A stretch of 64,000 nucleotides of DNA from Olivibacter jilunii (GTDB lineage: Bacteria; Bacteroidota; Bacteroidia; Sphingobacteriales; Sphingobacteriaceae), in contig NZ_LR027848.1 of assembly GCF_900607235.1 (NCBI RefSeq), positions 857,241-921,240 of the forward strand. The letters run 5' to 3'. The notes under the pieces are model-generated. The model saw only the letters and a list, made by a program, of their open reading frames with translations. It made no database searches and was not told where the DNA came from. The translations under genes were made by a program, and so were the position numbers. Positions within the stretch are counted from its first letter, which is position 1, and every line of letters begins with the position of its first letter. Positions 59,420 through 64,000 of the stretch are shown in pieces.

Positions 59420-59460
59420 AGTCCCATCAATTGGCTTAGGTTGGTTGATGGGACTTTTTT
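59420..59460 (+). terminator. Terminator after SusC/D pair 4
   Basis: AGTCCCATCAA (59420-59430) pairs with TTGATGGGACT (59445-59455), followed by a T-run to 59460. Confidence 0.87.
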
Positions 59461-59482: not shown

Positions 59483-59513
59483 TTGTATTTAAAGAAGCTT
59501 TTCCATAAGTTTG
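59483..59513 (+). promoter_or_regulatory. Promoter of the LytTR response regulator
   Basis: TTG (59483-59485), 20 bp, TAAGTTTG (59506-59513), an exact match to TAnnTTTG. Transcription would begin near 59519, 13 nt before ATG 59532. Confidence 0.6.
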
Positions 59514-59531: not shown

Positions 59532-60266
59532 ATGCTTTATAAATGTATTGTCATTGACGATGAACCTGATTCGGTAGAAATTATTAATGATTATATTCAG
59601 CAAATTCCTGAATTAGTTGTCTTGCAAAGCTATATAGACCCGGTAAAGGCAATGGCTGATATGGCCCAAGGAGATCCCGTGGATTTCGTTTTTATGGATA
59701 TTGATATGCCTCGCATTTCAGGACTCGAGTTATCAAGAGCGATCCGAAGTAAGACAAATAAGCTTATTTTCACTACAGCGCATACTAAATACGCATTTGA
59801 AGCCTTCGAAGTGGAAGCAGATGCTTATTTGTTGAAACCATTTACCTTTGCAAAATTTGCCTTAGCTATCAATAAATTACTCAACGATAACCCTCGAGTT
59901 CGAACAGAGGACAATTCAAAGGAGTTTTATGTTAAAACTACGGAAGAACGTAATCGCTTTGTTCGCATAAAATTTGATGAGGTTATTGCGATTGAAAGTG
60001 TTAAGAACTATATTAAAATCTATACGACCACAGAGGAGATAATGACTTATCTCACCTTAAAGGAGATAAAGGAGCGTTTTGATGAAACCGATGATTTTAT
60101 TCAAATACATCGCTCATTTATTATTTCAAAAAATTACATAGAAAAAGTAGAAGGAAGCTTGGTGAAGCTGCCAAAGAACATGCTTATCCCAATTGGCACT
60201 TTTTATAAGGATGCCTTTTATGACTACTTGTTGAAAAATACAATAAAGACTGGCCGTAATAACTAA
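59532..60266 (+). CDS. LytTR-family response regulator
   Basis: A 244-residue DNA-binding response regulator. The receiver domain (about 1-120) has the acidic pair in VIDDEP, the acceptor D56 in FVFMDIDMPRISG and the lysine in LLKPF. The LytTR DNA-binding domain (about 135-240) shows VRIKFDEVIAIESVKNYIKI, IQIHRSFIISKNYIEKVEG and LPKNMLIPIG. Its kinase partner is probably the LytS-type gene 246 nt downstream. It has its own promoter. Location next to a lanthipeptide dehydratase gene suggests, but does not show, a role in controlling that cluster. Confidence 0.94.
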   Translation: MLYKCIVIDDEPDSVEIINDYIQQIPELVVLQSYIDPVKAMADMAQGDPVDFVFMDIDMPRISGLELSRAIRSKTNKLIFTTAHTKYAFEAFEVEADAYLLKPFTFAKFALAINKLLNDNPRVRTEDNSKEFYVKTTEERNRFVRIKFDEVIAIESVKNYIKIYTTTEEIMTYLTLKEIKERFDETDDFIQIHRSFIISKNYIEKVEGSLVKLPKNMLIPIGTFYKDAFYDYLLKNTIKTGRNN

Positions 60267-60512
60267 GCCAGCCTTTAAACCAACCAACTAAAACTATTAA
60301 ATAGATTTTGACTATACCGTCCAAGTAAAAAACTCATCTGTAAAAGTTTCTTTTTTTGCTTGGGTACTTCTCTGTGTCTTTTTAAATAAAAAGATTGTTT
60401 TTTTTGTAACTTCGATCTTTTTCATGGCTTTTCTTTTAAAATTGAGAGTTATAGTTGTGATGTCCAAAATTTTTACACGAAAGCCCGTTTAGCTTACACC
60501 AAATGAAAAATT

Positions 60513-61640
60513 ATGGATAAACGTATCCCGAATTTTTTTACCAAGTACAAGGTTCATATTATAACTTGGTCAATTTTTATCCTTTACGAAACCATCATTC
60601 TTGGATTGGTGTCTGGTAGATTTGCTAAAATTGGATCCTATACGATCCATTATGTGCAGCATATTTTATTATTCTATTTTCATGCTCATTTTGTGCTTCC
60701 CCGAGTTTTAAGAACAAAATTTGCTGTATTGGCTTTGCCTGTTGGAATTGCAATTGAAATTGTTGTTTATTTCTTCGTTTTTTTTATCATTGAAAACGCT
60801 GCAGCTACACTTCCTGGAATATTTGGCGTTCGGAAAGTAACAATGGCCTGGGCATTGTTTATAAAGGTTTCGTGGCGGTCGCTTTATTTTATAGGCTTTT
60901 CTACCGGGTATTATTTTTTGATTAACTTATTAAGAGAGAGAGAACGGACAACCTCTCTCGAACGACAGCGATTAAATCAAATTATAGAGCAGCAGAAAAT
61001 GGAGAAGGAACTGGCTAATGCACAAAATGCGTATTTAAGGGCTCAGATTAACCCTCACTTTCTTTTCAATACCCTCAATTTTATCTACAATAAAACACGT
61101 AAATCGGCTCCGGTGGCTGCAGATGCTATTTTAACTTTATCAGCCATGATGCGTTATGCAGTAGAAAGTAGTGAGGACAAGGGATATATTGCCATTGAAG
61201 AAGAAATTGAGCAGGTACATAATCTCATCCACCTACATCGACTTCGCCAAAATCACCAAATATATTTTAACATAGAAGTCGATGAACGAGTTCGCAACAT
61301 ATGGATGATCCCTTTAGTTCTAATTACGCTAACAGAAAACATTTTCAAGCATGGGAATCTATCCTTAGCCAATCATCCTGCAATTTTGAAGATATATACT
61401 GACCAAGAAAGTCTGTTAATTGAAACCAAGAATTTAATTAACGCCATACATAATACAAGTGGCTTAAGTAAAGGTCTGGAGAATATAGCCAAAAGACTCG
61501 AACATACCTATGGGGACCAGGCCACCTTTACTTATCGCAGTGATGGCAAAAATCATTTTGAAACAAAAGTTCAAATCAAGCTTGCTGTTTTAAACGGTTT
61601 TGTTGCGCCAGCAGCTCTTTCAGATAAAATTGGTAAATAA
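60513..61640 (+). CDS. LytS/YehU-type sensor histidine kinase
   Basis: A 375-residue membrane kinase. About four hydrophobic segments lie in the first 150 residues (GLVSGRFAKIGSYTIHYVQH, LALPVGIAIEIVVYFFVFFI, LYFIGFSTGYYFLINLL). A short coiled coil leads to the His_kinase domain with the phospho-acceptor H182 in AQINPHFLFNTLNFIYN and a small ATPase domain (LTENIFKHG). It has no large sensor domain, so it may sense a membrane-bound or peptide signal. Its 3' end overlaps the convergent dehydratase gene by 65 nt. The 246-nt gap before it holds no clear promoter. Confidence 0.92.
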   Translation: MDKRIPNFFTKYKVHIITWSIFILYETIILGLVSGRFAKIGSYTIHYVQHILLFYFHAHFVLPRVLRTKFAVLALPVGIAIEIVVYFFVFFIIENAAATLPGIFGVRKVTMAWALFIKVSWRSLYFIGFSTGYYFLINLLRERERTTSLERQRLNQIIEQQKMEKELANAQNAYLRAQINPHFLFNTLNFIYNKTRKSAPVAADAILTLSAMMRYAVESSEDKGYIAIEEEIEQVHNLIHLHRLRQNHQIYFNIEVDERVRNIWMIPLVLITLTENIFKHGNLSLANHPAILKIYTDQESLLIETKNLINAIHNTSGLSKGLENIAKRLEHTYGDQATFTYRSDGKNHFETKVQIKLAVLNGFVAPAALSDKIGK

Positions 61641-64000
61641 TCAGTTCGTGGACGCGTTGATCGGTGGTAAATAGTCGGTTAACGTGCATATGGACTAAAT
61701 CCCGTATTAGCTGTAAGGATTCGTTTACATTTGTTTGTTTCAGTAGAAGGGAAACTTGTTTTAATAAGGCTTGATAAGCCCTTTCAATTTTTTTTGGCAG
61801 GGATATACTCACTTTTTCTCTTTTGAGATGGCTAAATAATTCATTGATGGCTTTAAATCCTTTCATCTCTACCTTAAATTCTTCGGCAAAAGCATCACCG
61901 CCATTTTTAATAAAAGCGCTTATTTTCTTAGGATCAACATCTAATTGGTTAAGAAGATCACCCAATAGACGCAATACTAGTCTATAAGAAGTATGCTGAT
62001 CAATATTGTTTTTGATTAACATGAACGTGTATTCACTATCCTTCCAAAAGCAATGTTCAGCTTGATCGATTGTGGAAACACCGTACCGTTCAATTTCTCT
62101 ATGATAATTTTTTATTTGTAAATCAGAGATGATGCCACTTTCGATTTCTCGAGATAGGTGTTTGGTCAATTGAAAGATTGCTTCATGAAAGGATGTGGGG
62201 TCTGTTAGCTTGAGACGTAATCGTATATGAGGGGAAGGAGCCGAATAACGAATAAAAAACCATTTCGATATGTTAGGTTTAACTTTTTCTAAGTAAGGAG
62301 AAATGTTTTCGGTTAACAGCACATTTGAATGCAACGGATGTATATAGATTTCAACGTATAACCAGTCTTGTCCGATCATTGAAATTCGTTGATCAGCATT
62401 GATCTTCGTAAGGCCTGTCGAAAAAGTTTTATATCGGTTTGCTGTATTGTGCAAGTGAATGTTCAACTCAGATAAAAAAGGTCGTTTTTGCTTACTTTTG
62501 ATTGCCGATTTTTTTGGTAACGCGGTTTCCGTGATATACAGTTCCTTTCCGCTTTTTATATATTGTAGTAAGAATTCGAGATCTTCATCTGAATCTGTAT
62601 TGAATAGCAGGTATTGATCGCTATTTAAACATTTGAAGGTTGAAGGTATTCCCGCTTTTTTTAGGTATTTCTTTAGCGCCCTGATCGGTATAGACTCATT
62701 TAAAAAAGTCTCTCCGTCTATTTTCCACATCCGAGGAGAAAACACAAGGTTTTTGTAGTTAACCCGAGGATAATAGTTAAGTTGAGGAAAAATCTTATTT
62801 AAATTAATTGTTAGACTGGTAAGCAGGTGCTGATGTTGTATGTCGCATAGAAGACGAAATATCGATAAATCAGATCGTGTATAATTATAGGCGCTAGCTA
62901 AACGTGGAACGATACGTTTAGCTAGGCTTTTCGCGCGCAGGACAATTTCATTGCCTTTTACACTAATATAAACATCGTCTAGTCGTAATTGGTGTTCGTT
63001 CTCGGTCCACGTGAGCAGAGGTAGCTCATAATGATACAGGTTATCCCGTCTATTAACGCTATCGACCTTCCGCTCGGATTGATAAGCAATGTCAAAAAAT
63101 ATGATTTCGGGATTAGCCTCTTCCTCTATGCGCACGAGCTCTTTACTGTACCGAGTCAAACTGGGATTTTCCAAGGTAAATCGGCCTATAAGTGAATTTG
63201 CGGTAGCTCCGCCAGCCTGTTGGATTAAAATTTGGCCGTCTATCTCCTGTATAATTAGGCTAAATGTATTGGGTAATTTAGTGGCATATTTCGGAAGATT
63301 GTGCTTCGCTAGTTCTTCCAGCTGAATATCTTCCCCTTTCAAGATCCCATTTAATAAAAACTGATGGAAAGGGGTGTAAGGTATTTGTTCGTTTTCTTGT
63401 ATCCGACTGCCTTTTAAAAGCTCTATTAATTCGTCTGTGTGAGGCGATGATTCCAATTCATTGTATCCCACACCTAGTTCCGGGTCCAAGGCTTCCAAGA
63501 GCGGAACTTCCCGATATTCGAATTTAAGTTGGAAAGCGCGCTTAAAATCTTCCAATGGCTTATGGACGGGTTGGGGTAAATAGTCTTTTATAAAATTGAT
63601 TGCCTCCGGTATTACTTTAAACTGTTGTGTGCTAAGACTACCTTTAAGTAATGATCGGGTAGCAATTATATAGGGATTTTCTTTAAATTCTTGCCCGTCC
63701 AGTCCAACTCGCTTAAAGTAATCCGTACCGATGATATTGGGATGTAGATCAGTCAATAGCAGCTGCAATTCGATGAGCTGAATCAGAAAATCGTCTACAA
63801 CTGCTAATTCTAGTTCATACTTACTGATGAGATGCTTTACAATTTTTTCTTTGGCAATAGTGGTTTTACATCGCTGCAGTACATCTTCGATAATTGCTTG
63901 TTTATCAATCGATGCAATTTCAAAGGTGCCGTCTTCCAAGGTGCTGATGTAACGTAATTGATCGCCGCAGGGGTAAACGGACGTGTTGGCCTGAAAAAAT
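61576..64000 (-). CDS. LanB-type lanthipeptide dehydratase, C-terminal part (runs off the right edge)
   Basis: The visible 807 residues are the C-terminal part of a class I lantibiotic dehydratase, which uses glutamyl-tRNA to dehydrate Ser/Thr in a precursor peptide. The frame stays open to base 64000: before the nominal TTG at 63939 it reads ANTSVYPCGDQLRYIST, a conserved LanB segment, so the start is outside. The glutamylation domain covers most of the visible length. From about residue 515 the elimination (SpaB_C, thiopeptide-type) domain follows, with DWLYVEIYIHPLHSNVLLTE, WFFIRYSAPSPHIRLRLKL and FHEAIFQLTKHL. Full proteins have about 1000 residues, so roughly 200 are missing. The precursor peptide, LanC cyclase and exporter would be expected beyond the edge. 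Confidence 0.9.
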   Translation of the reverse strand, partial: FFQANTSVYPCGDQLRYISTLEDGTFEIASIDKQAIIEDVLQRCKTTIAKEKIVKHLISKYELELAVVDDFLIQLIELQLLLTDLHPNIIGTDYFKRVGLDGQEFKENPYIIATRSLLKGSLSTQQFKVIPEAINFIKDYLPQPVHKPLEDFKRAFQLKFEYREVPLLEALDPELGVGYNELESSPHTDELIELLKGSRIQENEQIPYTPFHQFLLNGILKGEDIQLEELAKHNLPKYATKLPNTFSLIIQEIDGQILIQQAGGATANSLIGRFTLENPSLTRYSKELVRIEEEANPEIIFFDIAYQSERKVDSVNRRDNLYHYELPLLTWTENEHQLRLDDVYISVKGNEIVLRAKSLAKRIVPRLASAYNYTRSDLSIFRLLCDIQHQHLLTSLTINLNKIFPQLNYYPRVNYKNLVFSPRMWKIDGETFLNESIPIRALKKYLKKAGIPSTFKCLNSDQYLLFNTDSDEDLEFLLQYIKSGKELYITETALPKKSAIKSKQKRPFLSELNIHLHNTANRYKTFSTGLTKINADQRISMIGQDWLYVEIYIHPLHSNVLLTENISPYLEKVKPNISKWFFIRYSAPSPHIRLRLKLTDPTSFHEAIFQLTKHLSREIESGIISDLQIKNYHREIERYGVSTIDQAEHCFWKDSEYTFMLIKNNIDQHTSYRLVLRLLGDLLNQLDVDPKKISAFIKNGGDAFAEEFKVEMKGFKAINELFSHLKREKVSISLPKKIERAYQALLKQVSLLLKQTNVNESLQLIRDLVHMHVNRLFTTDQRVHELIIYQFYLKELLAQQNRLKQQA

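Follow-up and report, generated by a model that had tools for sequence, protein, structure and literature searches.

A putative peptide-signalling module of a LanB-type dehydratase, a Thr-rich precursor and a LytS-LytTR pair in Olivibacter jilunii

We analyzed a 64,000-nucleotide stretch of the Olivibacter jilunii genome (the window; G000:C1:857241-921240 of the source genome), together with sequence past its edge. Its right end carries a LytTR response regulator gene, a LytS-type sensor kinase gene, and a gene for a LanB-type dehydratase, all three of which had been recognized in an initial annotation and are real at the places given there. Between the two regulatory genes, and on the strand opposite to both, lies a small gene that had been overlooked, encoding a 37-residue putative precursor peptide. 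We propose that these genes form a LanB-matured peptide-signalling module and not a lanthipeptide cluster, a reading to which we assign a probability of about 0.6. The evidence for it is derived from sequence: which genes are present and how well they are conserved, selection on the coding sequences, catalytic residues, fold, the spacing of the operator repeats, and co-occurrence. The features concerned are as follows.

59532..60266, + strand: LytTR response regulator, 244 amino acids (PF00072, E 3.1e-18; PF04397, E 3.3e-17; both over cut-off)
60312..60425, - strand: putative precursor peptide gene, 37 amino acids (conserved position and sequence, purifying selection, profile match)
60473..60503, no strand: putative LytTR-type operator (perfect repeat match; 21-bp spacing peak in two sets)
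60513..61640, + strand: LytS-type sensor histidine kinase, 375 amino acids (PF06580, E 6e-20)
61576..61640, no strand: 65-nucleotide 3' overlap of the kinase and LanB genes (coordinates exact)
61576..64000, - strand: LanB-type dehydratase, C-terminal 807 of 934 amino acids inside the window (PF04738 and PF14028)
59420..59455, + strand: terminator-like hairpin, 16 pairs and then a T run, between a SusD-like gene and the regulator

A 246-nucleotide gap separates the regulator from the kinase, and the precursor open reading frame (ORF) occupies it on the LanB strand, divergent from the kinase. The peptide has a Thr-rich tail and no Cys. Counterparts in three relatives of the same genus have the leader pattern K-x-T-x-F-x-F amid basic residues, and several relatives have a gap of about 0.8 to 1.1 kb with three to six tandem precursor copies. 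Where LanB is short, the precursor sits in the gap between the genes for regulator and kinase; where LanB is longer, at 1000 residues, those two genes adjoin directly and the peptide is encoded outside the pair, again divergent from the start of the kinase gene. This divergence from LytS was found in all 36 loci examined, with a spacing of 0 to 153 nucleotides; these loci supplied the 37 rows of precursor alignment A1. As a regular expression for the leader motif caught only some precursors, the gaps were then read by eye. All 48 precursors contain at least five Ser or Thr residues among their last 20, some having been recognized with Thr content in mind, and 36 of them have no Cys. Neither Pfam nor NCBIfam assigned any of 10 precursors to a meaningful family, and Pfam gave none for the precursors of loci L088, L092, and L281 or for the L174 peptide.

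The precursors appear to be real genes under constraint. In eight of nine pairs of relatives, nonsynonymous divergence (dN) was well below synonymous divergence (dS), with dN/dS of about 0.05 to 0.25; the ninth pair gave 0.49 (0.33 versus 0.68). Purifying selection was also found between the window precursor and that of locus L044, which, like L045 and L046, has the identical -65 overlap between LanB and kinase genes. In the window this overlap falls exactly at 61576-61640, as the initial annotation had it.

The arrangement recurs widely and is not due to chance. We assembled 41 LanB loci from whole genomes, namely the two of the source genome and 39 picked by hand, some as the best matches and others to sample the weaker range; L082, not being a LanB locus, was excluded. 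LytS and LytTR adjoin LanB in 40 of the 41, in convergent or codirectional orders. The exception, L081, is a canonical cluster in which LanC adjoins LanB and the peptide has Gly-Gly and Cys. Alignment A3 yielded a second set of 80 named loci, some from genomes that overlap the first set; a scan of genome contigs with the single LanB protein had found nothing. LytS and LytTR were present in 76 of these, a precursor profile match likewise in 76, and a precursor divergent from LytS in 74; two further precursors were recognized by eye. For 63 of the 76 loci with a match, none was identical to the rows used to build the profiles. The module recurs in Pedobacter, Mucilaginibacter, Olivibacter, and Taibaiella, with a precursor match at two loci of the last genus, which belongs to another family than the source. 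We rejected a chance ORF on the basis of this 80-locus conservation, the dN/dS values, and the unlinked modules described below. At L047, L050, L052, L059, L064, and L068 a second LytTR gene is divergent from the module's regulator.

Precursor and LanB also occur together genome by genome. Among 301 genomes of the family, 95 of the 99 with a precursor match carry LanB (Fisher p 4e-34), and the matches in the four LanB-less genomes are weak (E 5e-4 to 0.0085). In a sample of 395 genomes of the phylum, the precursor profile matched three, all inside the family and none outside; similar peptides nonetheless occur in Taibaiella and in the L174 genome. Outside the family, some full-length LanBs stand with LytS/LytTR and a LanC-like gene (L174, L175, L186), and at L174 a Cys-free, Thr-rich peptide is divergent from LytS; most other matches examined there are LanBC clusters or split LanBs without LytTR. 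The L174 peptide and these LanC-bearing loci point to a possible origin of the module in regulated lanthipeptide clusters that lost cyclisation.

The putative operator consists of two 10-bp direct repeats, TTACAC(G/C)AAA, with 21-bp spacing, 9 nucleotides ahead of the kinase start and 47 nucleotides from the precursor start. LytTR proteins use half-sites two helical turns apart. The window copy is perfect, and 0.04 matches with at most three mismatches would be expected in the window. Filtering for length and near-duplicates left 30 regions, over which the mean best repeat match is highest at spacing 21 (z 6.3). Fifty further regions, used out of 76 and with precursors outside the profiles, have their maximum at the same spacing (z 11.5, followed by 3.0 at 28), although related regions are not independent and these z-scores overstate the significance. 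Genome-wide, the pattern was found in 12 places against 8 for a reversed control, which does not resolve a regulon; beyond the perfect copy, three places have two mismatches, and one of them is upstream of the kinase operon of the second LanB. The initial annotation had suggested that the regulator pair may sense the product. A functional link of the pair to LanB is borne out by the adjacency in both sets of loci, by the precursor between the regulator genes in short-LanB loci, and by operator repeats in the kinase-precursor promoter. The LytTR protein is the predicted cognate regulator of the module, and the LytS kinase, for which membrane segments are predicted, is probably the receptor of the peptide.

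LanB itself is complete, with 934 residues (G000:C1:918816-921620) and a start codon 380 nucleotides past the window edge. It matches PF04738 (E 2.7e-70) and PF14028 (E 1.3e-51), both over cut-off, and is a full LanB with its elimination domain, as had been claimed from the letters of the window. The protein of Olivibacter sp. XZL3 is 65% identical to it. In an alignment of the 41 LanBs, the equivalents of NisB R83, R87, R464, R784, R786, and H961 are kept in all, those of R826 in 40 and T89 in 38, and that of D121 is not conserved; in the window protein, Y66, R69, R73, T75, and R12 occupy positions that are invariant among 12 aligned proteins. For NisB, the accessible part of one study gives D121A as tolerated and Y80F and H961A as abolishing activity (PMC4341554). 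An AlphaFold2 model of LanB (predicted local distance difference test score, pLDDT, 84.4) matches MadB, NisB, and MibB (PDB entries 9G05, 4WD9, and 5EHK) over the full length (Foldseek E 5e-47 to 5e-39), and over both domains, residues 1-932, superposition gave Z 26-29 with root-mean-square deviations of 8.7-10.0 over 834-882 residues (VIA). The window protein thus resembles these class I dehydratases in its two-domain fold and catalytic residues, but differs from them in being shorter, in a PF04738 match that skips profile positions 211-296, and in the D121 position. A thiopeptide pyridine synthase was considered for the C-terminal domain because the folds are similar; the elimination residues and the fusion to a glutamylation domain favor elimination. 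Judged by residues and model, LanB is expected to be capable of both glutamylation and elimination.

A lanthipeptide cluster had been expected past position 64000, with LanC, a precursor, and an exporter in the next 15 kb as the signs to look for. This did not hold up. By Pfam annotation, the genes in the 14 kb past the window encode two proteins without a match, an ECF sigma factor, two methyltransferases, an M28 peptidase, a hexosaminidase, an SNF2 helicase, and an M19 dipeptidase, and neither a LanC nor an exporter was found among them, which disposes of a LanC just past the edge. The expected precursor does exist; it lies on the other side of LanB, inside the window, and none was found downstream. 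No class I LanC was found in the source genome, whose sole LANC domain belongs to an 899-residue RamC_N-Pkinase-LANC class III synthetase, and blastp to one LanC reference found LanC in none of the 80 named loci. The class III synthetase (L082:6784-12710, G000:C2) adjoins a 1060-residue flavin oxidoreductase-like protein. The NF038153 leader profile gave nothing over cut-off in the source genome.

The second LanB of the genome (1018 residues, G000:C13:74112-77168, L006:8113-11169) is convergent with a LytTR-LytS pair and has a lone receiver-domain gene ahead of it. We rejected it as an explanation of the first because it has this regulator pair of its own. No precursor was recognized at L006, whose kinase does not belong to the module group; a 51-residue ORF with a Ser/Thr-rich tail (L006:7532-7687) is a candidate, and Pfam gave no family for one L006 candidate. 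Elsewhere, two ORFs at L004:5763-6083 and L004:12629-12889 contain a common repeated sequence, probably a dispersed repeat; one of these ORFs lies immediately upstream of LanB at that locus.

Precursors also occur away from LanB. Among the matches listed, all 16 such precursors have their own LytTR-LytS module, antisense and kinase-divergent, with no LanB there. The source genome holds only 26 LytS-type genes in 6.7 Mb, so that adjacency of unlinked precursors to LytS is not by chance; here a profile match stands beside one kinase only, that of the window. The initial annotation had considered conservation of the pair without the dehydratase as evidence against a link. Such pairs do exist locally, in the unlinked modules, but genome-wide LanB accompanies nearly all precursors, as the counts above show. 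We compared linked and unlinked precursors of the same genome in seven genomes, one of which had no linked match; over the six pairs, leaders are 41% identical and tails 19%. This pattern would fit one enzyme serving several signals, each with its own receptor. In a kinase tree, 55 of 56 module kinases fall on one side of a split together with 1 of 15 other kinases, the window kinase grouping with the 54 other module kinases; 9 of the 24 other kinases of the source genome were not recognized by the filter and were excluded. The unlinked modules at L088, L091, L093, L095, L098, and L099 lie near SusC/SusD genes, and most also near a redoxin-like gene, which are possible targets.

In the mechanism we propose, the dehydration, export, sensing, autoactivation, and targets are what we infer. 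The precursor would consist of a basic, aromatic leader (KK-T-x-F-x-F/Y-K), recognized by LanB, and a Thr/Ser-rich tail, whose Ser and Thr residues LanB would glutamylate via glutamyl-tRNA before eliminating glutamate. The outcome would be a linear peptide rich in dehydrobutyrine and without lanthionine rings, because there is no LanC and mostly no Cys. Unlinked functions would remove the leader and export the product, which would then activate the membrane kinase LytS; LytS would phosphorylate the LytTR regulator, and the regulator would bind the spaced repeats between kinase and precursor and drive both divergent genes, a positive feedback, as well as further targets. Extra precursor-LytS-LytTR modules, with divergent tails and similar leaders, would allow one LanB to serve several signals. 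We tentatively extend this to a quorum-sensing family of Gram-negative Bacteroidota that uses LanC-independent, linear, dehydrobutyrine-rich RiPP (ribosomally synthesized and post-translationally modified peptide) pheromones, with one LanB and several signals that each have their own LytS-LytTR pair; this is a serious possibility, held with less than even confidence.

Known LanB products are mostly antimicrobials. The peptide might accordingly be a linear dehydrated bacteriocin, with the pair merely autoinducing it or sensing its stress as NisRK does for nisin, and the loci outside the family where LytS/LytTR adjoin LanB and a LanC-like gene (L175, L186) agree with this. There is, however, no conserved immunity or export gene, and the unlinked precursors keep the kinase-regulator pair but no LanB of their own, which makes the receptor the constant partner and not the enzyme. 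We consider an antimicrobial unlikely, if the best placed of the alternatives. Somewhat less probable is a peptide that acts inside its own cell and reports LanB activity or charged glutamyl-tRNA. Such a role would suit a module that has no exporter and an enzyme that uses up glutamyl-tRNA, as stated in the accessible part of PMC9993889, but LytS has predicted membrane segments, and the diversification of receptor and ligand across modules would fit an external signal better. Slightly lower still we place the idea that the small ORF is real but encodes a small membrane or regulatory peptide of the kinase, LanB modifying something unlinked. The LanB-less modules speak for it, as do leaders that are basic and aromatic and unlike known class I types; set against this are the presence of LanB in almost every peptide-bearing genome, the Thr/Ser-rich tails (partly recognized by that content), and, within a genome, leaders more alike than tails. 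A true class I lanthipeptide pathway with LanC and exporter elsewhere in the genome is very improbable: LanB is complete, a few precursors have Cys near the end, and LanB and LANC co-occur above chance (60 of 148 LanB genomes, separate canonical clusters included), but the only LANC domain of the genome is that of the class III synthetase, 62 of the 95 genomes with precursor and LanB have no LANC match, the window precursor is free of Cys, and L081, the sole locus of the 41 without LytS/LytTR, is the one with LanC and a Cys-bearing Gly-Gly-leader peptide.

Beyond the overstated operator z-scores, several observations weigh against a LanB-matured signal. Its weakest points are export and leader removal: across the 41 loci the module has neither a conserved exporter nor a conserved protease, and Gly-Gly occurs in only 5 of 48 precursors, so that this cleavage signal is missing as a rule. 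The leader motif LxLxKx5L, given for Bacteroidota lanthipeptides in the accessible part of PMC7268733, is found in its strict form in 0 of 48 precursors and in a relaxed form in 14, against a shuffled mean of 4.4 and maximum of 13. Twelve of the 48 contain one or two Cys, and some could therefore form rings; among ORFs from the named loci, 15 of 133 have Cys in the last 25 residues. Four of the 41 loci have no intact precursor (L061, L063, L081, and L006, that of the second LanB), 53 of 148 LanB genomes have no precursor match, and one kinase of the source genome, L123, groups with the module kinases yet has no such peptide. Separately, at L061:7119-7244 (- strand) the precursor tail seems out of frame relative to L060, a broken gene or a sequencing error, and precursors of Taibaiella and Sphingobacterium at L281:8649-8973, L274:8723-8872, L279:8670-8816, and L286:8630-8785 have a single Cys near the C terminus, where a small ring is possible.

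Upstream of the module the window contains SusCD-like genes, and the hairpin at 59420-59455 parts the SusD-like gene from the module. The regulator had been credited with its own promoter. A TAnnTTTG element at 59506-59513, upstream of it, is consistent with this, but such elements are common by chance (6 found against 4.4 expected).

Nisin autoinduction (NisB, NisRK) offers a parallel in which a LanB-modified peptide is likewise expected to feed back through a two-component pair. Here, by contrast, there is no LanC, exporter, immunity gene, or protease, Cys is mostly missing, and the regulator is of LytTR type, whereas NisR is an OmpR-type regulator. The module shares with the Bacteroidota class I lanthipeptide clusters (pinensins) a two-domain LanB, a Ser/Thr-rich core, and relatives in the same phylum, and some lanthipeptide clusters of other families also have LytS/LytTR; it differs in having no LanC, no C39 exporter, mostly no Gly-Gly, and leaders that depart from LxLxKx5L. 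That bacteria read peptide signals with two-component pairs is textbook knowledge for Gram-positives. The agr/com-type quorum sensing of Bacillota, which also uses LytTR, is alike in its short precursor gene, membrane kinase, and LytTR regulator, and in a divergent promoter with direct repeats suited to autoactivation. Our module differs from it in its Gram-negative Bacteroidota host, its LytS (PF06580) kinase, a likely maturation enzyme that is LanB and not AgrB, a precursor antisense between the regulator genes, and the lack of a linked exporter. A similarity of AgrA to LytTR is described in the accessible part of PMC3673130.

In the open literature, which was the scope of our search, we found no published description of the module. 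The accessible parts of the sources list peptides as the autoinducers of Gram-positives and other, small molecules as those of Gram-negatives (PMC8895600), report no LanB in Bacteroidales (PMC10352776), and, in two Pedobacter surveys, do not mention LanB (PMC12181424, PMC10609062). Lanthipeptide mining that starts from LANC_like matches, as described in the part of PMC7268733 available to us, omits LanB without LanC. The module looks like an unrecognized peptide signalling system of Gram-negative bacteria. If this is true, it would account for the LanB genes without LanC that such mining overlooks, would provide a genetically simple system in which to ask whether dehydroamino acids signal without rings, and would represent a separate RiPP class and a path by which lantibiotic clusters could be pared down to signalling alone. 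It would also mean that the abundant Bacteroidota of soil and plants have a peptide-based means of communication.

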